Source of the DNA: Synergistaceae bacterium
GTDB lineage: Bacteria; Synergistota; Synergistia; Synergistales; Aminobacteriaceae
Length of the DNA: 64,000 nucleotides
Reading direction: 5' to 3'
NCBI GenBank assembly: GCA_017439345.1
Contig: JAFSJJ010000044.1
Location: 186,001-250,000, forward strand
Positions 34,628 to 63,764 of this stretch are shown piece by piece. The first letter of the stretch is position 1. Each line of letters opens with the position of its first letter. Under the pieces are notes generated by a model. That model saw only the letters and a list, made by a program, of their open reading frames with translations, was not told where the DNA came from and made no database searches. Position numbers and translations under genes: made by a program.

Positions 34628-35269
34628 TTAATAATCAAATTCGATCATCGTTGTAGCATTAGATATTTGCAGGGCACTATCAACGTTATTTCTGAATTTA
34701 TCTACTTCGGCCTGCAGCTTCTTTATCTGTTCCGAGATGTTAATAGGATCAACCAGCACAAACGAATTATTATTTCTGAACATTTCGGATAATGCCTGTA
34801 TCTCAGAAGAGTTGACCTTATCTTTCGAGCCGTATGATGCATTAATGAAGTCCTCTAATTTCTTATCGAGTTTGTCTCCGTTCTCGGCTTCGATTAGTTC
34901 TCTTGCTGCGGTAAGCTGTGAAGTCATCTGCATAATTAAATTCTCTTTGTCGCTGCATCCTTTTTTCAGGGCGTATAATGCTTCGGCTACACTCATTCTT
35001 TCATCGCCGACTGTAATATACGTTGATGCGTTCGATAATGAGATAGCTTTTTTCATCGCGTCAGTGCGTCTGATTAAGTCTAATATCGAGTCAAAATTTG
35101 ATTTAGCTTCTTTCTTGAATGCATCAAGATCAACACCGTTAATTTTCTTAGCGTTCTGTCTGTTGGCTGCGCAAAATGTTGTAGACATGATAGTTGAAGA
35201 AATGCGCCTTATATTAGTTTTTATTTCGACAAGTGCTTCATGAACCGTCATTTTTACATGCTGCGGCAT
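34628..35269 (-). CDS. Orphan helical protein, possibly phage-related
   Basis: A 213-residue, mostly helical protein. It has two similar short motifs, MTVHEALVEIK near the N-terminus and MSVAEALYALKKG around residue 100, each followed by long helices; the second is preceded by SNASTYITVGDE. From memory, this pattern is like small structural or accessory proteins of Firmicute phages, but no neighbouring gene is phage-like and I cannot confirm it. No signal peptide. It is separated from both neighbours. Confidence 0.55.
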   Translation of the reverse strand: MPQHVKMTVHEALVEIKTNIRRISSTIMSTTFCAANRQNAKKINGVDLDAFKKEAKSNFDSILDLIRRTDAMKKAISLSNASTYITVGDERMSVAEALYALKKGCSDKENLIMQMTSQLTAARELIEAENGDKLDKKLEDFINASYGSKDKVNSSEIQALSEMFRNNNSFVLVDPINISEQIKKLQAEVDKFRNNVDSALQISNATTMIEFDY

Positions 35270-35308: not shown

Positions 35309-35980
35309 CTAGCATAGAGAAAAATTTAAATCAAGTGAAGCAATATATTTATATGTCCGTGTGAATTTATTGCTAGTCTCTTTCATGAAATTTTTTATGT
35401 CGTCAGGTGTATCAAGATCATCAAGCTCATGAGCAAGCCCTAAAGTTAATCCCGCGTTGTGAATATTCTTTCTTGCTGACTCTAAGACGCTCGAAGTTCC
35501 CCACGAGTCAGAATTAAAGACTTCATGCAGTGCCCTCGACATCGCTGTTAGCCAGTAACCTCCGTCAAGTGACGGAGCAAGCACGCAGTCATAGTTATCT
35601 AACATAGCAAACGCCTCAAGAATATATTCATGTTTTATTAACGGGACATCGCTGCCGATTAATGCGACTCGTTTGCAGCCTGACTCTAAGACTTGATTAA
35701 TAGCGTTAAACATTCGGACTCCAAGTGAGCCTTCAGACTGTCTGCAAAGAATGAATCTCTCAGGAATAAATTTCTTGTAATCGTTAATATCGCCTGTGCC
35801 TGTCCAGTAAAGAAATATTTGCGTTGAATCAGGGAGCTTGATTACTTCACTGAAAACATCGTGCCACATCGCAAGCATTAAGCCTTCACGCTGAGAGTCA
35901 TTCAACAGGGGAGCTAATCGAGTCTTGACTTCATGACCAACAGGAAGCCTTGAGAAAATTATTAACGCGTTATCTTTCAT
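35309..35980 (-). CDS. TIGR04282-type glycosyltransferase (DUF2064)
   Basis: A 223-residue nucleotide-diphospho-sugar transferase-like protein (ALIIFSRLPVGHEVKTRLAP at the start, VALIGSDVPL, APSLDGGYWLTAM). The family is named for arsenosugar biosynthesis, formerly rSAM/selenodomain-associated transferase 1. It is the last gene of the minus-strand cluster that starts at 45001 and overlaps the next transferase by 11 bases. The true substrate is unknown. Confidence 0.85.
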   Translation of the reverse strand: MKDNALIIFSRLPVGHEVKTRLAPLLNDSQREGLMLAMWHDVFSEVIKLPDSTQIFLYWTGTGDINDYKKFIPERFILCRQSEGSLGVRMFNAINQVLESGCKRVALIGSDVPLIKHEYILEAFAMLDNYDCVLAPSLDGGYWLTAMSRALHEVFNSDSWGTSSVLESARKNIHNAGLTLGLAHELDDLDTPDDIKNFMKETSNKFTRTYKYIASLDLNFSLC

Positions 35981-36656
35981 AAATAGACCTCAAAAATTTT
36001 GTCGGACAGCCTAATATATACAGAGCTTTAACTATATTCATCTTGAGCCACGTCTTATACTTTCCATGAGTAATATAACGTCTAGCAGAAGTGTTTATTA
36101 TAGTGTCAAGAGCGAAAATTTTACCAGCTTTGTGAAGTTTTCTTAACCTCCGCGAAATCTCCCAGTCTTCCATTAGATAAATCTCTGTAAAGCCTCCGAG
36201 TTCGTTGAATATATCACGCCTCAAGAATAAGCCTTGATCGCCGAATATGAGACAGAAATTTTTTGCCCTAGTGTGTGAAGTCCTCGCTATGAAGTTCATG
36301 AATTTATCATCAGAGTCAGAGTCATAAAATCTTAACTTGAAGAAGCCTCCTGCTGCTCCGTTATTAATTGCGTCATTAATATCATGAAGACTTGTACTTG
36401 AGACTCTTGAATCAGCGTGAACGAACCATAGAACTTGGCCGCGTGCTATATTTGCTCCTGCGTTCATTTGGAAAGCCCGGCCCGGTTTCGAATTGATTAC
36501 TGTAACGTTAAATTTCTCTGCAAGCTCCCTTGTAGAATCTTCGCTGCCTCCGTCTGAGATAATTATCTCTTTATCGCCTTCGAGTCCCTGAAGTGAAGAG
36601 ATTAACTGCGCGATATTATTTTCCTCGTTCAGGACAGGGACAATTATAGAAATCAT
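35970..36656 (-). CDS. TIGR04283-type family 2 glycosyltransferase
   Basis: A 228-residue GT-A glycosyltransferase: ISIIVPVLNEENNIAQLI start, the IISDGGSEDST nucleotide site, VLWFVHADSR (DxD-like region) and GGFTEIYLMEDWEISRRL. The family was called rSAM/selenodomain-associated transferase 2 and is assigned to arsenosugar clusters. Its start ATG directly adjoins the stop of the radical SAM gene. Confidence 0.87.
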   Translation of the reverse strand: MISIIVPVLNEENNIAQLISSLQGLEGDKEIIISDGGSEDSTRELAEKFNVTVINSKPGRAFQMNAGANIARGQVLWFVHADSRVSSTSLHDINDAINNGAAGGFFKLRFYDSDSDDKFMNFIARTSHTRAKNFCLIFGDQGLFLRRDIFNELGGFTEIYLMEDWEISRRLRKLHKAGKIFALDTIINTSARRYITHGKYKTWLKMNIVKALYILGCPTKFLRSIYER

Positions 36657-37604
36657 TTATGCCGTAGTACCTCCGCAGCTCGAGCCGTTCCCAGCTACAC
36701 AAGCATAACAGTGATCAGCAAATTTTATTTTACGGGGCGTTAATTGCGAAATGTTATTAACTTTGCTGATATTATCAGGCTCATCAATTGCGAGTCCTAA
36801 AGGCTGGTTAAAGTCGCAGTCGTATAATCTTCCGTCACAGCCTACTGAAATTTGAAATCTGCACATCATGCCGGGCAGTGCTTCAGGATTGAAAGAGTCA
36901 AATAAACGCTTCATGTACTTGTCATAGTTGCCTGATCTGTCAAGAAATTCGCGAAATCTTCCGATTGGGTTATTAGTAATCGCAAATAGATTCGTGAACT
37001 CTATATTATGCTCAGACTTAAGGCGCGCTTTGTATTCTCTCTCTAAGCTGCTTTGATTAGGGGGCAGGAAAGCTCCTCCGGGATTGTAGACCAAATCAAG
37101 GGGAAGTTTTTCACTAAGTCCATAACCAAGAGCATTTAACTTTTTAAGCATAGAGATTATTATCTTGAAAGTTCCTGAGCCTCTTTGTCTGTCGCAGTCA
37201 TTCTCAGAGTAAAACGGCAGCGAGCAGACTATTTCGACTCCCCGTTCTGCTAAGAATTCCGGCAAGTCCTGATAACCTGACTCGTTCATGATAACAAGAT
37301 TGCTTCTAGTCATTACGTGAACTCCTGAATTAATTGCGTTGTCGATGAGCCATCTGTAATTATTATTCATCTCAGGAGCTCCTCCGGTTATGTCTAATAT
37401 CTTGAAGTTAGGCAGGAGTCTTATAACGTGCTTCATAGTCTCAAGGCTCATTTCTTCATGGCGATTCAATCCTGCGTTTATGTGGCAGTGCTTGCAGAAT
37501 AAATTACATTTACTAGTTATATTCACCTGCATGATATTTAGAGTCCTGCTCGTGAACTTCAAAGACTCATCGCTAATCATGCTCTCGAAATTTTGAATAA
37601 TCAC
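36657..37604 (-). CDS. arsS: ArsS-type radical SAM enzyme
   Basis: A 315-residue radical SAM protein with the cluster motif CNLFCKHC (C33, C37, C40) and the family's Cys-rich C-terminus (CDFNQPLGL, HCYACVAGNGSSCGG). TIGR04167 members are called ArsS and in studied cases join a dimethylarsenic group to a 5'-deoxyadenosyl unit; many homologues carry selenocysteine in the C-terminal motif, but here the codon is TGC. GTG start overlaps the CMD gene stop (GTGA). No ArsM methyltransferase is in the window, so an arsenic role is uncertain. Confidence 0.88.
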   Translation of the reverse strand: MIIQNFESMISDESLKFTSRTLNIMQVNITSKCNLFCKHCHINAGLNRHEEMSLETMKHVIRLLPNFKILDITGGAPEMNNNYRWLIDNAINSGVHVMTRSNLVIMNESGYQDLPEFLAERGVEIVCSLPFYSENDCDRQRGSGTFKIIISMLKKLNALGYGLSEKLPLDLVYNPGGAFLPPNQSSLEREYKARLKSEHNIEFTNLFAITNNPIGRFREFLDRSGNYDKYMKRLFDSFNPEALPGMMCRFQISVGCDGRLYDCDFNQPLGLAIDEPDNISKVNNISQLTPRKIKFADHCYACVAGNGSSCGGTTA

Positions 37605-37933
37605 ATTGATAATCCTTTCACTATATTTTTCATTTGGACACCGTGAACAAGTGAAGCTCCTCCCCTTAAGGCGCAGGCTACGTGAATTGCTTCGGTCATC
37701 TGCTCTTCATTGGCTCCGTTCTCTAAGCAGCTCTGAGTGTAAGAGTCAATGCAATAAGGACACTGGACGGCGTGGGCTACGGCAAGGGCGATTAATGCTT
37801 TCTCGCGTTTGGTCAAGGCTCCTTCTTCAAATACTGCGCTGTAATACGAAATAAATTTTTCCCATAAGTCCGGGGCAAGTTCTCCCATTGAAGCAAATTT
37901 TTCTAGATCATCTGGATTGTAGTAAGTGTTCAT
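37601..37933 (-). CDS. CMD/AhpD-like peroxidase-family protein (TIGR04169-like)
   Basis: About 110 aa, carboxymuconolactone decarboxylase fold with the redox motif CPYCIDSYTQSC and a downstream His in AIHVACALRGGASLVHG. It is the usual partner of ArsS and a counterpart of E. coli YnjA. Homologues often have selenocysteine in the CxxC; this one has Cys. I set the start at ATG 37933, eight bases after AAGGAG; the GTG at 37942 overlaps that site. Confidence 0.85.
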   Translation of the reverse strand: MNTYYNPDDLEKFASMGELAPDLWEKFISYYSAVFEEGALTKREKALIALAVAHAVQCPYCIDSYTQSCLENGANEEQMTEAIHVACALRGGASLVHGVQMKNIVKGLSM

Positions 37934-37938
37934 GTAGT

Positions 37939-38724
37939 TCACTCCTTATGTAAATTTTTCGCTGTTATGAATCTATTCAGCAGGTTAAAATTTTTCTGTG
38001 AAATTTCAGCATTACCAAATATTAAATCAAGAATATGAATGCTCTTGTGCTGATTATCAATACTCATTGCCGACCTGCACGAAGCACAGTACGAAATTAT
38101 TAATTCGCAGGGTGATTCATTGGCGCGTTCCTTCATTGCCTGCTTACTGCCTGTAGTGATTGCCTGAATTCCTCCGCAGCACTTGAATCTTTTCTTGAAT
38201 TCGTGAATCTTGACTCCCATATACTTTAACATTTCGCGAACACTATTTGCGATTTCCTGAGTCCCTGAGCACGAGTCCTGAACACTTGCTTCAAGCCCCG
38301 AGTATTTCCCCTTCAAGTCATCGTTAAGGCCAAGACCCAGCATTAACGGCCATAAAGATATAATTTCGCGTTCATGTTGATAATCTCTTAATACTCTATA
38401 ACAATTCTGGCAGGCTGTGATGACTCTCTTAGCTTTCATTGAGTCTAAATCACGTTTCAAGAGTTCATGATGTCTCGTGAAAGTCTTTGACTCGTTAAGC
38501 AGCTTTAACGGTTTAGAGCAGCAAGCCGTTAATATTCCGATTTGAGAGTCGAGTCTTCTGCTCAGGTAATCTTGAATCATGAAAATATAACCGGGATTAT
38601 AGCCCATGAGACTGCATCCCGGAAAAAATATAATTCCTGACTCTGACTCTCCTGTGTTACGCCTCAAGAGTGATGACGATGCTAAAAACTGATCGAGCCT
38701 GATGAAAATTTTATTGACGTTCAT
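37939..38724 (-). CDS. Cys-rich (CCG-type) redox protein
   Basis: A 261-residue protein with two halves like the Cys-rich domain of heterodisulfide reductase/glycolate oxidase Fe-S subunits: FFPGCSLMG, TACCSKPL and CQNCYRVL in the first, DSCSGTQE, FKCCGGIQ and SYCASCRSA in the second. Such domains hold an Fe-S cluster or cycle thiols. No ferredoxin domain is fused, so electrons must come from a partner. It overlaps the membrane gene before it by 14 bases. Confidence 0.8.
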   Translation of the reverse strand: MNVNKIFIRLDQFLASSSLLRRNTGESESGIIFFPGCSLMGYNPGYIFMIQDYLSRRLDSQIGILTACCSKPLKLLNESKTFTRHHELLKRDLDSMKAKRVITACQNCYRVLRDYQHEREIISLWPLMLGLGLNDDLKGKYSGLEASVQDSCSGTQEIANSVREMLKYMGVKIHEFKKRFKCCGGIQAITTGSKQAMKERANESPCELIISYCASCRSAMSIDNQHKSIHILDLIFGNAEISQKNFNLLNRFITAKNLHKE

Positions 38725-39085
38725 GTTTCGCAGTGAATAATATAATTACAAAGCCTGTTATGATTACGCCTACTAACGCAGCATTAATCACACGAAACGA
38801 TAAATTATGCTGCATGAGTCCTTCTCTTATAATCGACGCAGGAATTACGAGCAAGCCTTCAAGTCCGAGAATATAAAGCAATCCTGCAAACGTAATCACA
38901 AGACTTAATAATGACATCTTGAAAGTGTTGAATTTCTTTGTCAGAACGAATAACAGAGTCAGCACTAACGATACAGCAAAAAATATTATTCCTGTGTTAA
39001 TGCGCATGTCGAGCCACTCATTTCGCGACAACACGACACTAATTAACATGCTCCATAACAAAGCGTTATATATACAAGCAAGCAT
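38711..39085 (-). CDS. Small integral membrane protein
   Basis: A 124-residue protein with about four hydrophobic helices (for example TGIIFFAVSLVLTLLFVL and VIITGFVIILFTA). It starts 4 bases after the YdjY-like gene and overlaps the Cys-rich gene. No family is recognised. Its position suggests it may anchor the Cys-rich redox protein to the membrane, in the manner of small electron-transfer membrane subunits; this is inferred only from order. Confidence 0.65.
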   Translation of the reverse strand: MLACIYNALLWSMLISVVLSRNEWLDMRINTGIIFFAVSLVLTLLFVLTKKFNTFKMSLLSLVITFAGLLYILGLEGLLVIPASIIREGLMQHNLSFRVINAALVGVIITGFVIILFTAKHERQ

Positions 39086-39089
39086 TTAC

Positions 39090-39725
39090 TTACTTCACGA
39101 GCCTCACTATCACATTAACGCGGGTCCCATCCGGAGGCAGGGTGTCAGGATTTCCTTTGAAGCTGACTTCTTTATTATTCATTGCTCCTGTAGGCCACGC
39201 AGCATTAGTCGTTATTCCTGCAGCACATGAGTCAAGACATATAAAGCAGCCTGGGTGATACTTGCTTGCGAATTCAAGATTGCCGCTGAATCTCAAATCA
39301 AGTTTTCTGACTTCACCATTTGCAACTGTGCTTATAATCGCGTCATCAAGGGAGACTTCACCGTTTGAGCCTTCCCATGTCAAGAACACACTTACTTTGC
39401 TGCCTTCTGTAGATTTGCCTTCTGCGCTGGACTTGGCCTTCATATCTTCAGCCTTGATGTTATCTCCGGGAACTGCTCCGAGTTCGACAAGTGCATTATA
39501 ATAATCAATCTCACTGACTAGGGCGCGCATGATTGACTTCTCACCGTTTCCGCCTTTGAAGTATGACAAGGCGTGCTTTGTGGGGCTGACTAAATATTTG
39601 CCGTTGACCTCAGCAGGAATGATGATCTCGCCTTTCTCTTTGTCAATCGTTAGGGATAACTCTTCAGCAAGGGCGAATGACACACACGACATGATAATTA
39701 ATAAAGCAAGAATGAATTTTTTCAT
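39090..39725 (-). CDS. YdjY-domain exported protein
   Basis: A 211-residue protein with signal peptide (cleavage near FALA/E) and a YdjY-like domain: LTIDKEKGEIIIPAEVNGKY, an IMRALVSEIDYYNALVELGAVPG stretch, and a C-terminal region holding CFICLDSC. E. coli ydjY lies between two TVP38/TMEM64 genes; here two such genes lie just upstream. Four cysteines in the C-terminal half could bind a cofactor. AGAAGGG precedes the ATG. Confidence 0.7.
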   Translation of the reverse strand: MKKFILALLIIMSCVSFALAEELSLTIDKEKGEIIIPAEVNGKYLVSPTKHALSYFKGGNGEKSIMRALVSEIDYYNALVELGAVPGDNIKAEDMKAKSSAEGKSTEGSKVSVFLTWEGSNGEVSLDDAIISTVANGEVRKLDLRFSGNLEFASKYHPGCFICLDSCAAGITTNAAWPTGAMNNKEVSFKGNPDTLPPDGTRVNVIVRLVK

Positions 39726-39790
39726 GATAGAATTTCCCTTCTGTTATAATTTACATGACACTTCAATAAAACTTTCACGCAAGAAATAAA

Positions 39791-39813
39791 TTACTAATAC
39801 AATTACTAATACA
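39791..39813. repeat. Tandem 11-bp direct repeat, copy of 13124
   Basis: Two copies of TTACTAATACA (reverse complement of the unit at 13124) separated by one base. It lies in the 127-base gap that splits the minus-strand cluster into two halves, about 65-90 bases upstream of the YdjY-like start, a good place for an operator. Confidence 0.7.
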
Positions 39814-39852
39814 AAAAGTTTTGATTCACTGAGAGACAACAATGCTTCATGC

Positions 39853-40518
39853 TCAAGACTGCTTAACGAATCTTTTACGAACGAACGCACCGATTAACGT
39901 AACGATAACTGCAAGAGTCAACGCTAGAAATAAATATAATCCCCTTCGTTCAGAGTCGGTGATGCCTGCTGCTCCCAAAGTGAAAGCTGCTGCTCCAGGT
40001 GCCATGAATAAGAACGTATACAAAGCATAAGTGATGAGCTTTATATCTGTGAGTCCATACGCGAAATTTTGCAGGTTAAACGGAAACAACGGCACTAAAC
40101 GAGTTATCATTAATAAAATAACTCCGCTGTGTTGAACGTCATCAAATAAAAATTTCTTGAGAATTAAACTCTTTTCGAGCATGGGCTTCACGGAGTCACG
40201 TAAAAAATATCTCGCAGAAATAAAAGCTAACACAGCTCCCAGAGTCGCGGCTACGAGACATAAGAACGTTCCGGTTAATGGATCGAATAACAAACCTGCA
40301 ATCAATGCAAAGGCAGCACCGGGCAAAGCTAACACTACACATGCTAACGATGTCGCAATGATATAAATCAACGCAGCTTTAACAGGACTCTCAATCACAA
40401 GCTCACGAATATATGGCAGCGAATTCATGAACTTATCGTTCAGACCGTAATGATGACTCACTAGAATAATAACAGCGAGACTCACGAGAAATATTGCAGG
40501 CTTGATGAACTTGCTCAC
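39853..40518 (-). CDS. TVP38/TMEM64-family membrane protein (YdjX/YdjZ-like) 1
   Basis: A 221-residue protein with the TVP38/TMEM64 (VTT/SNARE-associated, DedA-like) fold: LALPGAAFALIAGLLFDPLTG, ALGAVLAFISARYFLRD, and LLMITRLVPLFPFNLQNFAYGLT. GTG start at 40518 overlaps the stop of the related upstream gene by 4 bases. The superfamily includes lipid scramblase-like and small-solute membrane proteins. Pairing of two copies next to ydjY mirrors E. coli ydjX and ydjZ. Confidence 0.88.
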   Translation of the reverse strand: MSKFIKPAIFLVSLAVIILVSHHYGLNDKFMNSLPYIRELVIESPVKAALIYIIATSLACVVLALPGAAFALIAGLLFDPLTGTFLCLVAATLGAVLAFISARYFLRDSVKPMLEKSLILKKFLFDDVQHSGVILLMITRLVPLFPFNLQNFAYGLTDIKLITYALYTFLFMAPGAAAFTLGAAGITDSERRGLYLFLALTLAVIVTLIGAFVRKRFVKQS

Positions 40519-41210
40519 TTCTTGCGCTCCTTGTAAATCTTTCGCATTAAGACAACCAGAGCAGACAACGCAAATAATATTAACAGTCCTGTCATCAATA
40601 ACTTTGCGCCCCCTGTAAGCATTCCGCCTACATATGAATATACGATAGTCGCAGGAAGCTGGCCAAGCCCCGTAGCTATAAAGAACGGCCAAAATCTCAT
40701 TGAAGTCAATCCCGCAGCATAGCTCACCAAGTCAAACGATATAAACGGAAGCAGTCTAGCAATTAATATACTGTGAGTCCCGTAGCGTTCAAAGAATGTA
40801 TTGATTGACTCGAGGCCTGCTTTACTGGTGAGTCTCTCCGCTGTGTCTTGTCCTAAAATTCTTGCGATATAGAAACACAACGCAGCTCCGGCCATAGCAC
40901 TTGACCACGAGAGAACTGCACCTTTTACCCATCCGAATAAATTTGCGTTCGCCAACGTGATTATAAACGCAGGAAGAGGAGCAGCTACTGACTGAAATAT
41001 CATCAGAAAGAAAGATATTAACGCCGCGTAAGTTCCATAGTTTGCAATGAAATCACGCATGGATTTGAAATCTCCGGAGGCAAAGGCACTCAGAGTCAAA
41101 TCAATAAAATTCTTGTAATCAGGAAAAATGAAATATGAAGCGATTAATAATGCAAGTACAGCAAGTATTAAGATTTTCGCCCATATTCCCGAAGAGCTTT
41201 GATGACTCAT
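40515..41210 (-). CDS. TVP38/TMEM64-family membrane protein (YdjX/YdjZ-like) 2
   Basis: A 231-residue relative of the preceding protein with about six helices: PLPAFIITLANANLFGW, AGAALCFYIARILGQD, IARLLPFISFDLVSYAAGLT, GQLPATIVYSYVGG. It ends in a basic tail. The one-base gap to the transglutaminase gene and the GTGA overlap with its sister show one operon. The two copies may form a heteromer. Confidence 0.88.
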   Translation of the reverse strand: MSHQSSSGIWAKILILAVLALLIASYFIFPDYKNFIDLTLSAFASGDFKSMRDFIANYGTYAALISFFLMIFQSVAAPLPAFIITLANANLFGWVKGAVLSWSSAMAGAALCFYIARILGQDTAERLTSKAGLESINTFFERYGTHSILIARLLPFISFDLVSYAAGLTSMRFWPFFIATGLGQLPATIVYSYVGGMLTGGAKLLMTGLLILFALSALVVLMRKIYKERKK

Positions 41211-41211
41211 A

Positions 41212-42252
41212 TTATTTTGCTAAATCATCGAGCTTTAGTGTTACCTTGAATTCAAATGTCTTAGGGCTGAACCAGTCTACAACTTTGCCGTCGATCTCTG
41301 CATAGGGATACATGAAATATGTCAGCGGAGTCTTTGCAGTCGCCTCGCTTAACACTGTCTCTCTTGTATCGCGGTTAAGTGCTATTCTGAGTAACTCATC
41401 TCCGCCCCAGAAAAATTCTGCCCATTTCTTTGAAGCAGGATCGTTGACATCTTCGAGATTCTCATTGAGCATTTTCTTTCTGACATCAGCAGGGTCAGCC
41501 ATTACCCAGCCTGTTCCGGGTAAATAGAACTCTGTCCAGCAGTGATAATTGCCCGTAATCTCGCCGGATTTCGCAGGGTCGACTCTCAGTCCGTAAACAT
41601 CGCGCGTGGGAATTCCTGAAGCTCTGGCCAAAGCTACGAACACTGAACTTATATCAGCGCATTTGCCTCCGCCGTCCTTCTCTGAGATTGTCCTGATTGG
41701 GAGACCGAGTCCGCAGCCTTCTTTGACGCTCTCATCTCTGAAAGTGTGAGCAATTACCCAGTTATAAACGCCTTGAGCCTTCTCTAAGATTGACTCTTTG
41801 TTGATAAATTCCATGCTTGCCTCTGCACAGAAGCCCTTATCAATGGGAAGAGACGGAGTCGCCTCAAGATATTTGAGAACTTCAGCCGGGAAAATTTTGC
41901 TAGTCTCGTGAATATTTTTATTCTTTGAGTAGTGTGAATTAACTTTGAAGGTCATTGTCAGAGTCGGAGTCTCTGAAGGATTGAGCCACGTTGCATGAAG
42001 ATACACTGCTCCTGACTTAGAATCTTTCTCAACGCCGATTCTTGCTGCCTTGTCTGCCTTGAAGTTCATATCAGTAATATCTTGATTTGCATCACTTACA
42101 GGGTAGGGAAGCCATAATTCAGCCTTCTTTGAGTTTGCTGCGTCCTTGAGATTCACTTCAAATGTAACTGTACCGGAATAATCAGCGAACGAAGCTGAAC
42201 ACGTAAAGAGAATTAATACGAGAGCTAACGATAAAGATAAAAATTTGCGCAT
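41212..42252 (-). CDS. Exported transglutaminase-like protein
   Basis: A 346-residue protein with a signal peptide (cleavage near ASFA/D) and a transglutaminase-core domain. The catalytic triad is visible: Cys in GGGKCADISSVF, His in NYHCWTEFYLP and Asp in GWVMADPADV. Bacterial members act as peptidases or crosslinkers in the envelope. It lies between the ABC permease and the TVP38 pair on one strand; why this cluster needs it is not known. Confidence 0.88.
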   Translation of the reverse strand: MRKFLSLSLALVLILFTCSASFADYSGTVTFEVNLKDAANSKKAELWLPYPVSDANQDITDMNFKADKAARIGVEKDSKSGAVYLHATWLNPSETPTLTMTFKVNSHYSKNKNIHETSKIFPAEVLKYLEATPSLPIDKGFCAEASMEFINKESILEKAQGVYNWVIAHTFRDESVKEGCGLGLPIRTISEKDGGGKCADISSVFVALARASGIPTRDVYGLRVDPAKSGEITGNYHCWTEFYLPGTGWVMADPADVRKKMLNENLEDVNDPASKKWAEFFWGGDELLRIALNRDTRETVLSEATAKTPLTYFMYPYAEIDGKVVDWFSPKTFEFKVTLKLDDLAK

Positions 42253-42281
42253 AAATGAATCACTCCTGAATAATAAAATAT

Positions 42282-43031
42282 TTAATCAATCGTCCACCGT
42301 AGTAAATATTCTTTCAGACGGTCAAAGAACTGCATCACTATCACTAACACCAAGACCATGAACAGGAAGCCTCCCCAAGCGTGATCGTACAAGCTGAAGT
42401 CAGTATACTTTTTCACAAAGAAACCCATTCCGTAACGAGAGCCGTACATTTCAGCATATACGAGCATTACGAATGTATTTCTCAGAGAATTCACGAAGCC
42501 TGATAATATAGACGGAGAAGCAGCAGGCAGAATAACTCTTGTGATTCGCTTTAATCCGTGAAGTTCGAGGGTGTCCGCTTTGTCAAGATAACGCTTATCA
42601 ATCGTCATTATTCCTGTTATCGTTGCGAACAGAGTCGACCACACAGTACTATACACAATCAGGAACACTGAGGCAGCCCAGAAGTTAGGAGCTAATAAAA
42701 GCACGAACGGTGAAAGCAGTATAGAAGGGACTACGCTGAAGATATATAACAAAGGGTGAAGGATCTCACGTAAAACAGGGTTACGGCCGAGAAATATCCC
42801 GACCGCTAAAGCTAAACTTAACGAAATTAATATAGAAGGAATCATCATGCCGAGAGACGATAAAAGATTTAACAGCATAATATCTTGATTCTTGGAGAAG
42901 GCTTTAACAATTGCGCTGACTTTGGGAAATAAAAACGGGTTCACAAGATTATTTTCTGTCATGTAGTAATAAAGCACTCCGAGTCCGAGAATTAATAACG
43001 CGCTGATAAAGTTAATAACGTAACGCTTCAT
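42282..43031 (-). CDS. ABC permease, NitT/TauT (SsuC) type
   Basis: A 249-residue BPD permease with about six helices and the EAA-type loop LELHGLKRITRVILPAASPSI. It belongs to the SsuC/TauC group. It sits between the substrate-binding gene and the transglutaminase gene, 26-30 bases from each. One subunit presumably forms a homodimer. Comparable position to YnjC, though the family is different in detail. Confidence 0.9.
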   Translation of the reverse strand: MKRYVINFISALLILGLGVLYYYMTENNLVNPFLFPKVSAIVKAFSKNQDIMLLNLLSSLGMMIPSILISLSLALAVGIFLGRNPVLREILHPLLYIFSVVPSILLSPFVLLLAPNFWAASVFLIVYSTVWSTLFATITGIMTIDKRYLDKADTLELHGLKRITRVILPAASPSILSGFVNSLRNTFVMLVYAEMYGSRYGMGFFVKKYTDFSLYDHAWGGFLFMVLVLVIVMQFFDRLKEYLLRWTID

Positions 43032-43057
43032 GATGACTCCGCAAAAATTTTTATTGA

Positions 43058-44104
43058 TTACAGTGTGTTGTTCTCTTCAAAGAAAGCCTGCATCTTTTTA
43101 TAGAATTCAGGAGCCTCGCTGCCGTACTCCTCGCTTGCTTCTTTGAGTGCCTGTCTGTAAAGTTCAATATTAACGTGGTCAACGATATTGATATTCTTTG
43201 CTGTCTCACTTAAGAAACCTGTAGCATCGAGAATCTTCCAAGCTCTGACTATTGACTTCAACAACGGGTCTGCGCTGACTCTGTAATGCTCATCGAACAT
43301 GTAGGCTTCAACAAATTCTTTCTCTGCTCTGATTTTCTCTGCGTGCCACTGTGCAGCCTCTTCTTTGTGAGACTCGTAATAACTCTGAGCGCGTAATAAA
43401 GCCTTGAGTATTAACTTAATCGTTACAGGGTTCTTCTTGACAAATTCCGTCTGAGCTTCCATTCTGCAGCACGAGTAAGCGGGCATAATATCGCTCATGT
43501 AGCACATGATTTCGACGTTGTCCTTGTTGACGTTCTTGATAGTGTAATTCTGCTCTGTTCCCTGTAAAGCGTAATCAACTTCACCGCGAATGACAGCGGC
43601 CAAAGCATCGTTATAATTTGTGATTACTACCCAGTCAAGGGCTTCAAGGGGCTTTGCGTATCCTAAATCTAAGACTGCTCCTGTTAATGCGAAATAGCTC
43701 GGATTACATGCGAACTTCTTGCCGATTAAGTCTTTGACTCCCTCCCACTTGACACCTTTCTTGGCGATAATGGGCATTGCTCCCGTCATCATGTGTCCGC
43801 CGAAAATTGTTAAATCTACTCCGGCCGCGATTTGCTGAAGGGGGTTGCTTGTGCCTGCGTTAGAGACTACATCGACCATGCCGGTTGATAATAACGTCAT
43901 TGCAGAAGCGTTTGCAGTTGCAGGGACTTCTTCGAGCTTGATTCCTACTTCATCAAAGTAGCCTTTTTTCTCAGCGATAGTTAATAATACATTTCCGCTT
44001 GCTCCGCTGTTCCAACGAACTAGAGAAACTTCGGGAGTCTCCTTAGCGTACGACACACCGGCAAGAGCAGTGATGATACACAGGACTAACAAAAACTTTT
44101 TCAT
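43058..44104 (-). CDS. ABC substrate-binding protein, NMT1/SsuA type
   Basis: A 348-residue protein with signal peptide (GVSYA/K) and NMT1/TauA-like sequence: VSLVRWNSGASGNVLLTIAE, GYFDEVGIKLEEVP, SAMTLLSTGMVDVVS, and GKKFACNPSYFALTG. Family members bind nitrate, sulfonates, pyrimidine precursors and other small compounds; the ligand here is unknown. In this cluster it may supply the precursor for the ArsS-type pathway. Confidence 0.88.
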   Translation of the reverse strand: MKKFLLVLCIITALAGVSYAKETPEVSLVRWNSGASGNVLLTIAEKKGYFDEVGIKLEEVPATANASAMTLLSTGMVDVVSNAGTSNPLQQIAAGVDLTIFGGHMMTGAMPIIAKKGVKWEGVKDLIGKKFACNPSYFALTGAVLDLGYAKPLEALDWVVITNYNDALAAVIRGEVDYALQGTEQNYTIKNVNKDNVEIMCYMSDIMPAYSCCRMEAQTEFVKKNPVTIKLILKALLRAQSYYESHKEEAAQWHAEKIRAEKEFVEAYMFDEHYRVSADPLLKSIVRAWKILDATGFLSETAKNINIVDHVNIELYRQALKEASEEYGSEAPEFYKKMQAFFEENNTL

Positions 44105-44164
44105 GATGATAATAAACTCCTTTGCAAAAAATATTTATGCTTCACGGATTCAAAATTAAACCTG

Positions 44165-45001
44165 TTAAGCATCGTTAATCGTATGTGAGGCAACATCTTT
44201 ATTAATCTGCCTGATTAATTCATTTCTAAGACGCAAAATATTCAAGTCCTCAAATTGAGTCTCTCGTGTAGGTTTATGTTCTTCAGGTATTGACGCTTCA
44301 TAAATAATTTTTCCCGGCGACTGACCGATTACAATAATTCTTGTCGCGAGTAATAACGCCTCGTCAACGTCATGGGTCACAAAAAATATTGTCTTGTAAG
44401 TGTCATTCCACAGAGCAAGCACCAAGTCTTGAAGCCTTGCCCTTGTAACAGCGTCTAAGGCTCCAAAAGGTTCGTCCATTAACAAAATTTCAGGCTCGAT
44501 AGCAAATGCCTGAGCAATTGCACATCTCTGCTTCATTCCTCCTGATAATTCTTTAGGGAGCTTGCGATAAATTGACTCGTTCAGTCCGACTTGAGTCAAT
44601 GCTTTAATCACTCGTGCTTTATATTCTGATTTAGAGAGTCCAGGAAATTTTTGAGTCAGTGCCAGCTTGATATTTTCTCCTGCCGTCATCCATGGGAAGA
44701 GTCCATAATCCTGAAAGACTACGCCCCTGTCGAGTCCTGCTGATTTAATCTTGTCAGAGTGCAAAAGAATCTCACCTGAAGAAGGCTTCTCGAGTCCTGC
44801 TAAGAGTCTTAAGAGTGTACTTTTACCGCAGCCGGATTGACCCAGAAAGCAAATGAACTCGCCGGGAATGACTTCAAGATTTATACTGCTCAGAATTACT
44901 TGATTACTATGCTGATACGAGAACGAAAGATTACGGACAGAAATGACAGCATTATTAAAATTCTCCTGAGCATTAACACGATGCCCGGAGTCCTGATTCA
45001 T
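44165..45001 (-). CDS. ABC ATPase, NitT/TauT (SsuB) type
   Basis: A 278-residue ATPase: Walker A GQSGCGKST, signature LSGGMKQRCAIAQA, Walker B LLMDEPFGALD and switch His in VTHDVDEALL. It energises the importer with the next two genes. It is the first gene of the minus-strand cluster. No good ribosome binding site is seen before the ATG at 45001, so the exact start is uncertain. Confidence 0.9.
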   Translation of the reverse strand: MNQDSGHRVNAQENFNNAVISVRNLSFSYQHSNQVILSSINLEVIPGEFICFLGQSGCGKSTLLRLLAGLEKPSSGEILLHSDKIKSAGLDRGVVFQDYGLFPWMTAGENIKLALTQKFPGLSKSEYKARVIKALTQVGLNESIYRKLPKELSGGMKQRCAIAQAFAIEPEILLMDEPFGALDAVTRARLQDLVLALWNDTYKTIFFVTHDVDEALLLATRIIVIGQSPGKIIYEASIPEEHKPTRETQFEDLNILRLRNELIRQINKDVASHTINDA

Positions 45002-45197: not shown

Positions 45198-46292
45198 ATG
45201 AAAATAGCTCTTGGCTGCGACCATGCAGGTTATGTGTTAAAGAGTACAGTCCTTGAATTTCTGAACTCTAGGCAAATCGAAGTTATTGACTTTGGAGCTT
45301 ATGCACCCGACCACGATGATGATTATCCTGATGCAGCTTTCAAAGTTGCCCGCTCAGTAGCTGACGGAGAGACCCACGCAGGAATATTATTATGCGGTAC
45401 AGGTTTCGGAATCTCGATAGCTGCCAACAAAGTACGGGGAATAAGGGCCGTTGCATGTGATACGCCTGGTAAAGCACGACTGGCAAAAGCTCATAACAAT
45501 ATAAATATAATCGCACTCGGAAGCACTATCACGAAGCCTGAGGAAGTCCCTGCAATTCTTGATACATGGCTTAACACTGCGTTTGAGGGCGGAAGACACT
45601 TAAGACGTATCAACAAGATCTCAATGGGCGAAAGTTCAACCATGACTGCAAGATACGAGGGCGGCGGCAAAGTTACGATCTTCAATCATCCGTTAGTTCA
45701 GCACAAAGTCGGCTTAATCAGGAGCATTGAGACTACAAGCAAGCAGTTTAGGGAATTATTGCAGGAAATTGCGGGACTCATGGTCTACGAGATTACAAGA
45801 AGTCTGCCTTTGACTGAGAAGGAAATAGAGACTCCGTTGACGAAAACTATAGCTCACACTATCGAAGGCAAGAAGTTAGCGATTGTCCCGGTCTTACGCG
45901 CAGGACTTGGAATGGTTGACGGAATTTTACAGCTCGTGCCTAACTGCAAAGTCGGTCATATTGGACTTTATAGAGACCCTGAGACTCTGATGCCTGTTGA
46001 GTATTACTGCAAACTGCCTTTTGACATTGAGGAACGTGAAATACTTGTATTAGATCCAATGCTTGCGACTGGAGGCTCATCGGCTGAAGCTATAACGCTC
46101 ATCAAGAAGCGCGGAGGTCAAAGAATTTCACTTGTATGCTTAATCGCTGCACCTGAAGGAATCGAGAAAGTTCACGCTGTTCACCCTGAAGTTAATATTT
46201 ACGCGGCTGCCCTTGACTCGCATTTAAACGAACACGGTTATATAGTGCCTGGTCTCGGAGATGCGGGAGATAGACTGTTCGGGACGAAATAA
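45198..46292 (+). CDS. Fused ribose-5-phosphate isomerase B / uracil phosphoribosyltransferase
   Basis: A 364-residue two-domain enzyme. Residues 1-148 are RpiB: GCDHAG at 7-11, catalytic C66 in LLCGTGFG, H99 in AHNN. From about 157 the chain is a full Upp: [30 protein letters not shown] loop [11 protein letters not shown] and the terminal [11 protein letters not shown]. There is no stop or frameshift between them. It would link interconversion of pentose phosphates, the source of PRPP, to uracil salvage to UMP. The ATG follows AAGGAG. Confidence 0.95.
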
Positions 46293-63376: not shown

Positions 63377-63451
63377 TGGAGCGGAAGACGGGATTTGAAC
63401 CCGCGACCCCAACCTTGGCAAGGTTGTGCTCTACCCCTGAGCTACTTCCGC
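63377..63451 (-). tRNA. tRNA-Gly (GCC)
   Basis: Minus strand. Full cloverleaf: acceptor GCGGAAG/CTTCCGC, TAGCTCAG D-arm, anticodon loop TTGCCAA (GCC), T-arm GTTCAAAT, discriminator T, CCA encoded at 63377-63379. Confidence 0.95.
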
Positions 63452-63484
63452 ATTAAGTTATTCATATTCACATATTCTATTCAC

Positions 63485-63560
<76 letters not shown>

Positions 63561-63594
63561 CGATCATTGCTATACTCACCGGATTTAATTTTAA

Positions 63595-63672
63595 TGGCGG
63601 GGCCGACGAGACTTGAACTCGCGACCTTCGGCGTGACAGGCCGACACTCTAAACCGACTGAGCTACGACCCC
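63595..63672 (-). tRNA. tRNA-Asp (GTC)
   Basis: Minus strand. Acceptor GGGGTCG/CGGCCCC, D-arm TAGCTCAG, anticodon loop CTGTCAC (GTC), T-arm GTTCAAGT, discriminator G (usual for Asp) and encoded CCA. Confidence 0.95.
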
Positions 63673-63689
63673 GCGTTACTCGTTAAACC

Positions 63690-63764
63690 TGGTGGGCGAA
63701 GCAGGGTTCGAACCTACGACCCCTTGCGTGTAAAGCAAGTGTTCTACCGCTGAACTATCCGCCC
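63690..63764 (-). tRNA. tRNA-Val (TAC)
   Basis: Minus strand. Acceptor GGGCGGA/TTCGCCC, D-arm TAGTTCAG, anticodon loop TTTACAC (TAC), T-arm GTTCGAAC, discriminator A, encoded CCA. First of the four-tRNA group in transcription order Val-Asp-Phe-Gly. Confidence 0.95.

Follow-up and report, generated by a model that had tools for sequence, protein, structure and literature searches.

The question raised by a run of thirteen genes on the minus strand of a draft Synergistaceae genome is whether relatives of an uncharacterised Escherichia coli gene set and genes named for arsenosugar biosynthesis can belong to a single pathway. The run occupies positions 35309-45001 of the stretch analyzed here (the window, 64,000 nucleotides long), and it joins counterparts of ydjX, ydjY and ydjZ to an ArsS-type radical S-adenosylmethionine (SAM) enzyme, two glycosyltransferases and the genes of an ATP-binding cassette (ABC) importer. 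Ten of these genes, from the exported transglutaminase to the TIGR04282 glycosyltransferase, form a conserved core, and their association is more than chance. The best reading of this core is that it encodes an envelope-linked variant of the arsenosugar pathway which lacks ArsM and which would scavenge a thiophilic organo-metalloid; in its most specific form, in which one pathway would scavenge methylated arsenic, instead of making it, and convert it into a glycosylated organo-metalloid (a dimethylarsenic sugar being the most likely product), the proposal is held tentatively, at a little under an even chance.

This reading is preferred because four consecutive genes (TIGR04167, TIGR04169, TIGR04283 and TIGR04282), each above its curated cut-off, encode proteins of families that all carry arsenosugar biosynthesis names in NCBIfam; because, among the 185 Synergistota genomes that were surveyed together with 14 control genomes, all 18 with YdjY fall within the 27 that have ArsS above cut-off, and 15 of the 18 hold both in one cluster; and because 23 Synergistota ArsS rows, the window's and 22 others, form one supported clade (99/96) in the ArsS tree. 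It is preferred also because TVP38 genes adjoin ArsS in Pseudanabaena and Acinetobacter and an arsenic operon of Enterococcus gilvus with Acr3 and ArsC includes a relative of YdjZ, because the CCG and CxxC motifs of the putative redox proteins are complete and three cysteines of YdjY are invariant, because two different queries find no ArsM in 20 of the 27 ArsS genomes, and because one paper states that the radical SAM enzyme of arsenosugar biosynthesis adenosylates arsenic (PMC12159101).

Within Synergistota YdjY is above cut-off in 17 genomes and present as a contig-edge fragment in one more, and its confinement to ArsS genomes has a hypergeometric probability of 1e-18 when relatedness is ignored, while a count by genus gives 6/6 versus 12/62 (1.5e-5); among the control genomes YdjY is found in E. 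coli only. In the window's genus the core reads transglutaminase, YdjZ (VTT1), YdjX (VTT2), YdjY, small membrane protein, CCG protein, CMD protein, ArsS and the two glycosyltransferases. This order is kept in the relatives of the window genome, where the small membrane protein again lies 3' of YdjY. Other genera have other orders, for example YdjZ, CCG protein, VTT2, CMD, ArsS, YdjY, small protein and transferases in G123 and G124. An order that is conserved among relatives and rearranged in other genera argues against the simple inheritance of a chance neighbourhood, and the core that links ydjXYZ to ArsS, the CMD protein and the two transferases is conserved across several Synergistota genera. 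YdjY and ArsS lie on separate contigs in G054 and G060, with the pieces ending at contig ends, and on different contigs in G087, where about 9 kb of other sequence lies upstream of CMD on the ArsS contig and the two parts may be truly apart. The ArsS genomes without YdjY are G009, G015, G016, G037, G073, G089, G095, G143 and G182; in G073 and G143 the lack of a linked YdjY says little, since the ArsS contig is only about 4 kb long.

The chemistry suggested by the core depends first on ArsS, the substrate of which in arsenosugar biosynthesis is trivalent dimethylarsenic, and on the two complete HdrB-type CCG motifs and the CMD CxxC, both of which fit thiol-linked reduction. The invariant residues of the CCG protein are C37, C68-C69, C105 and C108 in one motif and C152, C182-C183, C213 and C216 in the other; C61 and C64 of the CMD protein are present in 24/24 aligned rows, H51, C160, C163 and C167 of YdjY are invariant in 15/15, and so are C198 and H237 of the transglutaminase in 11/11. 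The window ArsS retains CxxxCxxC and carries a C-terminal GSSCGG. The family is counted among prokaryotic selenoproteins in two reviews, one of which gives the motif GxxU (PMC13188914, PMC9312934), so the window enzyme represents the cysteine form. A structure database search returned one weak match and no solved structure close to it.

On the arsenic context of the cluster the evidence is less simple. Of the 37 genomes (among 185) in which ArsM (NF008823) exceeds its cut-off, 7 belong to the 27 with ArsS and 2 to the 18 with YdjY; a cyanobacterial ArsM query finds the same 7 of the 27, which leaves the same 20 ArsS genomes, the window genome included, without a match by either query. In the window genome (a draft, 98.3% complete) nothing reaches the NF008823 cut-off and the cyanobacterial query has no match at E 1e-5, and the other genomes of its genus likewise stay below the ArsM cut-off. 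Acr3 is above cut-off in 29 of the 185 genomes, of which 2 have ArsS and none has YdjY, and ArsB occurs in the same 2 ArsS genomes, so that each is without a match in 25 of the 27; neither of these arsenite efflux genes has a match in the window genome, other efflux families not having been searched for. Since ArsM, Acr3 and ArsB were not found, nothing else in the genome, as far as tested, points to arsenic, and without ArsM either methylated arsenic must come from neighbouring organisms or the substrate is something else; the absences make arsenic a less simple choice.

The same absences favour a different possibility, unlikely but to be taken seriously, which is that ArsS enzymes of the window clade no longer act on arsenic but adenosylate some other soft nucleophile, such as a compound of selenium, antimony or sulfur, and that the cluster makes a different glycosylated compound. 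The ArsS rows of four other Synergistota genomes fall outside the window clade, and all four genomes have ArsM. SelD, above cut-off in 123 of the 185 genomes, is present in 25/27 ArsS genomes versus 98/158 others (Fisher 0.0016) and, within the window's genus, in 12/13 versus 10/30 (0.0006), but both of these tests ignore relatedness. Three members of the window clade do have ArsM, moreover, and the CMD protein, both transferases and ArsS all exceed the cut-offs of families named for arsenosugars; both facts count against this possibility. Two further observations concern selenium: SelD accompanies ArsS although the window ArsS has cysteine, and several Synergistota ArsM matches in the phylum profile search contain an in-frame TGA, so that these are possible selenocysteine forms of ArsM.

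The core can also be examined in genomes which lack ArsS. The YdjZ profile exceeds 300 bits in 30 Synergistota genomes, 29 of which have TIGR04283 above cut-off and 21 of which have ArsS, so the transferases need not be arsenic-specific. (The use of YdjZ as a marker of ArsS genomes only was rejected, strong matches being found in nine ArsS-less genomes.) In G043 (L162:9584-13445) the genes for VTT1, VTT2, the CCG protein, TIGR04283 and TIGR04282 follow one another with no ArsS above cut-off in the genome, and G034 (L161) likewise has VTT1, VTT2, the CCG protein and both transferases without ArsS. A parallel arrangement was found in another genus, g27, at L164 (genome G105), L167 (G109), L180 (G106), L181 (G108), L182 and L183 (G110) and L184 (G111). 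In L164, L167, L180 and L181 it comprises VTT1, the CCG protein, a BioB-like radical SAM enzyme, an NMT1-type binding protein, an ATPase and a transferase, with VTT2 following in the first three, while L181 stops at a contig edge. All six g27 genomes with the transferase carry the YdjZ-type VTT protein, the CCG protein, the BioB-like enzyme and fused transferases, and the binding protein was seen in five of the six. In L164 and L167, the two loci checked, the CCG protein bears Fer4 and the BioB-like enzyme scores 51 and 49 bits, respectively, against TIGR00433 (cut-off 225); the transferase is a fused TIGR04282/TIGR04283 protein in L164, and in L167 it has the corresponding Pfam pair. Only L167, L182 and L184 gave a separate open reading frame (ORF) for the permease; in L164, L180 and L181 a single longer ORF was called at the place of permease and ATPase. 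The gene set is split over two broken contigs in G110, and in G111 the VTT1 and CCG genes stand at a different place from those for the enzyme, the importer and the transferase. Judged by these gene contents, the radical SAM enzyme of the module appears to be exchangeable, ArsS in one version and BioB-like in the other. This exchangeability is the least expected result of the analysis, and the BioB-like architecture hints that a new kind of radical SAM reaction, one that forms bonds, may exist.

From these loci a further account can be constructed, in which the conserved unit is a lipid-linked glycosylation and flipping module (the two VTT proteins, the CCG protein and the TIGR04283/TIGR04282 transferases) and an interchangeable radical SAM enzyme sets the class of product. 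As a rival this account is decidedly unlikely. It is favoured by the six g27 genomes with a BioB-like enzyme in the place of ArsS, by G043 and G034, by the 29/30 association of YdjZ with TIGR04283, and by the finding, given in PMC10127716, that some DedA proteins are undecaprenyl-phosphate flippases and some eukaryotic ones phospholipid scramblases. It is nevertheless compatible with an arsenosugar-type pathway and not an exclusive alternative to it, and in Thiodictyon and Hymenobacter the transferases accompany ArsS with no TVP38 gene listed nearby. We also know of no lipid product for the module.

The importer is an inconstant part of the cluster. In the window the three families of a NitT/TauT-type importer (PF09084, PF00528 and PF00005) are above cut-off, and the best NCBIfam match of the ATPase is TIGR01184, at 236 bits below its cut-off of 291.8. 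Close relatives of the binding protein (84-91% identity) occur in the ArsS genomes G059, G060, G066, G069 and G089 and also in the ArsS-less genomes G044, G062 and G065; in G066, G069 and G089 the relative is on another contig than ArsS, as it is in G060, where the ArsS contig is only 8.7 kb long. The genes found adjoining the core are the window's own set, a divergent set in G059 and a permease at a contig edge in G054, and in G089 a 45%-identical set lies a few genes away; several relatives, some of which lack ArsS, have the window-type ABC genes as an operon of their own. Because it lies elsewhere in relatives and occurs in genomes without ArsS, the importer is an optional partner in the window's genus. 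The original prediction had suggested a single pathway for the genes and had proposed a gene-neighbourhood comparison of YdjY, the two TVP38 proteins, the CMD protein, ArsS and the NitT-type ABC genes. The linkage is conserved for all of these except the ABC genes, and the ten-gene core probably serves one pathway, but the ABC genes are optional and in some relatives elsewhere.

The position of the importer is also one of the grounds on which it might be supposed that the cluster consists of two or three units with no pathway in common (the importer operon, the ydjXYZ-type genes and the ArsS genes), which merely happen to be neighbours. The 127-bp gap before YdjY and the separate contigs of G087 can be read in the same way, but for the ten-gene core this supposition has to contend with the 18/18 co-occurrence and the reordered linkage in other genera, and a terminator scan detected no strong terminator inside the cluster, with fewer terminator-like sites than in shuffled sequence, so that it is very improbable overall. 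Taken together, the promoter and terminator scans of the cluster gave no decisive signal.

The binding proteins bear on the nature of the ligand. The vicinal pair C212-C213 of the window protein is kept in 11/11 correctly read rows of its family, the row of G114, read in a wrong frame, being left out. The distant g27 binding proteins, which belong to an importer of the NMT1 type different from the window's, have three cysteines outside the signal peptide in 4/4 rows read (three of them aligned); of six loci read again, three yielded no protein and do not enter the counts. These sites may bind a thiophilic ligand; they are compatible with a soft nucleophile other than arsenic and count in favour of that possibility. 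No solved structure close to the window binding protein was matched at 1e-4. The transporter of the Sec-assisted organometallic (SAO) system is matched below threshold only: the ATPase scores 210.2 bits against SaoA (cut-off 360) and the binding protein 32.5 against SaoX (cut-off 300), and for both proteins other importer families score higher.

The original prediction had also likened the cluster to the E. coli run ydjXYZ-ynjABCD, which adjoins ynjE and ynjF. The likeness stands for ydjXYZ: E. coli YdjZ, YdjY and YdjX score 318.8, 178.4 and 175.7 bits against the cluster family profiles, with pairwise identities to the window proteins of 53% for YdjZ and 34% each for YdjX and YdjY. It does not extend to the ynj genes. 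YnjA, YnjB and YnjC had no match in the profile search with the cluster families, and in pairwise comparison YnjA aligns with the window CMD protein at only 20% over 70 residues (E 6e-4), while YnjB and YnjC reach E 0.35 and E 0.65 against the binding protein and the permease; YnjD matches the window ATPase as a generic ABC ATPase only. The equation of the importer with YnjBCD was rejected on these grounds, as was that of the CMD protein with YnjA, the window protein belonging to TIGR04169 of the ArsS set. The two systems thus share YdjX, YdjY and YdjZ relatives with an ABC importer and a CMD-superfamily protein nearby, but the families of the importer and of the CMD protein differ, the gene order is Z-X-Y in the window versus X-Y-Z in E. 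coli, and the E. coli stretch examined around ydjXYZ has no ArsS or glycosyltransferases. A cysteine of the VTT proteins is kept in YdjZ-type rows except Rubrobacter, and was rejected as a marker of the whole system, being absent from that column in VTT2, YdjX and the cyanobacterial proteins. The AlphaFold model of YdjY has a mean predicted local distance difference test score of 36. In the literature searched, one paper counts the E. coli operon among those activated by FNR (PMC3688515), another gives it as a target bound by PdhR (PMC7660256), and no established role for ydjXYZ turned up.

Beyond Synergistota, where plasmid-collection records and one E. coli genome were surveyed, pieces of the system recur in other combinations. 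A locus of Acetoanaerobium noterae (L097:6021-14521) resembles the window in that YdjY, YdjZ-type (as a fusion), VTT2-type and CCG proteins are clustered with an ABC importer, but the importer is of the YnjB type and a CDP-alcohol phosphatidyltransferase, which parallels ynjF near E. coli ydjXYZ, stands in place of ArsS and the transferases; no ArsS is above cut-off on the 2.63-Mb record, which is titled a plasmid. On the Enterococcus gilvus plasmid pCR1C (L100:885-4551) Acr3, ArsC and a rhodanese-like gene are followed by the YdjZ-type TVP38 gene (315 bits). The Pseudanabaena row reads TVP38, a mercuric-reductase-like gene, ArsM, TVP38 and ArsS, Acinetobacter portensis has ArsS, a TVP38/FAD oxidoreductase fusion, DUF547 and both transferases, and a Klebsiella record has two TVP38 genes without YdjY between them. 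Compared with the ArsS arsenosugar cluster, then, the window has the same four families in consecutive genes, differs in having no ArsM, Acr3 or ArsB found in its genome, and adds YdjY, the YdjZ-type and YdjX-type VTT proteins, the two-CCG protein, the small membrane protein and the transglutaminase.

Several observations weigh against the proposal that the core is an ArsM-less arsenosugar pathway. Neither ArsM nor Acr3 nor ArsB was detected in the window genome, and ArsS does not track ArsM across the phylum (7/27 ArsS genomes versus 37/185 overall). Genomes that lack ArsS can still have YdjZ, CCG and glycosyltransferase genes, and E. coli and Acetoanaerobium have YdjXYZ with no ArsS nearby. 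The importer next to the core is inconstant in relatives, and even in the core-bearing genus three genomes (G068, G083 and G084) have no CMD match between the CCG protein and ArsS.

On the arsenosugar-type proposal, we infer a substrate, an order of steps and a product as follows. A thiophilic compound would first be taken up, for which the adjacent NitT/TauT-type importer may serve in the window genome, or else YdjZ and YdjX, together with exported YdjY, would deal with it at the membrane. Reduction to a trivalent, thiol-reactive form would follow, brought about by the HdrB-like CCG protein and the CMD protein with its CxxC; ArsS would then transfer the 5'-deoxyadenosyl group of SAM to this form, and a sugar would be attached by the TIGR04283 and TIGR04282 transferases. 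Finally YdjZ and YdjX, as relatives of lipid flippases, might carry the compound, linked to a lipid or bound to the membrane, to the other side, and the transglutaminase would act in the envelope. A wider conjecture, itself rather unlikely, is that YdjZ/YdjX, the two-CCG protein and the two transferases (TIGR04282 and TIGR04283) make up a transferable platform on which glycosylated organo-metalloids are built and moved. ABC importers whose binding proteins have cysteine sites would feed it, and interchangeable radical SAM enzymes (ArsS in the window, the BioB-like enzyme in genus g27) would complete it; the FNR-activated ydjXYZ-ynjABCD operon of E. coli would be a pared-down version that handles a thiophilic metalloid compound, and the substrate of the ArsM-less ArsS clade would not be home-made dimethylarsenic.

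The ArsS-CMD-transferase set was already known, being named for arsenosugar in NCBIfam, and what is new is its joining to ydjXYZ; the literature searched yielded no paper tying TVP38/TMEM64 proteins to arsenosugars and little on ArsS or arsenosugars. The joining of ArsS and glycosyltransferases to ydjX, ydjY and ydjZ makes a long-orphan gene set testable, and the tie to a radical SAM/glycosyltransferase pathway provides concrete hypotheses for E. coli. If a clade of ArsS does without ArsM, the chemistry of arsenic sugars would be uncoupled from the methylation of arsenic, which would imply either that members of gut communities pass methylated arsenic to one another or that the substrate is another one.

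The layout of the locus (Table 1) agrees with what had been predicted from the letters. ORFs and family profile searches bear out thirteen minus-strand genes of the named types, with ArsS directly beside its two transferases, and only the small membrane protein is without a family. Neighbouring genes do overlap or nearly touch: the overlaps are 4, 14, 4, 4 and 11 bp and the gaps 0, 1, 4, 26, 29, 60 and 127 bp, so that 10 of the 12 junctions are overlaps or gaps of at most 29 bp, the exceptions being the 60 bp between ATPase and binding protein and the 127 bp between VTT2 and YdjY. The listed TTG start of VTT2 (40692) would give a 178-bp overlap with its neighbour, and the start is likely to be the GTG at 40518, which gives 221 residues and a 4-bp overlap.

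Table 1. Genes of the cluster, in the order in which they are read
Feature	Position in window	Strand	Family evidence
ABC transporter ATPase, NitT/TauT type, optional member	44165..45001	-	PF00005 116 bits
NMT1/SsuA-like periplasmic binding protein, vicinal Cys pair C212-C213	43058..44104	-	PF09084 62.9 bits
ABC permease, optional member	42282..43031	-	PF00528 (BPD_transp_1) 77.7 bits
Exported transglutaminase-like protein	41212..42252	-	PF01841
VTT1, YdjZ orthologue, TVP38/DedA family	40515..41210	-	PF09335; 53% identity to E. coli YdjZ
VTT2, YdjX-like, TVP38/DedA family	39853..40518	-	PF09335; 34% identity to YdjX
YdjY-domain exported protein	39090..39725	-	NF040466 119.4 bits, cut-off 50
Small membrane protein after YdjY	38711..39085	-	no NCBIfam/Pfam family match
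Protein with two complete CCG (HdrB-type) cysteine motifs	37939..38724	-	PF02754; C-terminal half of NF045663
CMD/AhpD-like protein, CxxC, arsenosugar-associated family	37601..37942	-	TIGR04169 197.1 bits, cut-off 120
ArsS radical SAM enzyme, cysteine form (C-terminal GSSC)	36657..37604	-	TIGR04167 396.9 bits, cut-off 300
TIGR04283 glycosyltransferase, GT2 fold	35970..36656	-	231.6 bits, cut-off 182
TIGR04282 glycosyltransferase, CofC-like	35309..35980	-	161.8 bits, cut-off 134

The source genome is a 2.54-Mb draft in 46 contigs (98.31% complete) from a Synergistaceae bacterium related to rumen Synergistaceae; the named relatives of the window ArsS come from metagenome-assembled genomes of Synergistaceae, Synergistales and Fretibacterium, several of them from goat, roe deer and red deer samples. 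Repeats at the locus are scattered two- and three-copy matches. An ORF of 213 residues without a Pfam match (34628-35269, minus strand) begins 39 bp after the cluster, of which it may be a fourteenth gene, and is followed by a terminator-like hairpin at 34311-34278. On the other side of the cluster a single plus-strand ORF (45198-46292) fuses an RpiB/LacAB-type isomerase domain to a uracil phosphoribosyltransferase, and four consecutive tRNA genes (Gly, Phe, Asp and Val) lie on the minus strand at 63377-63764.

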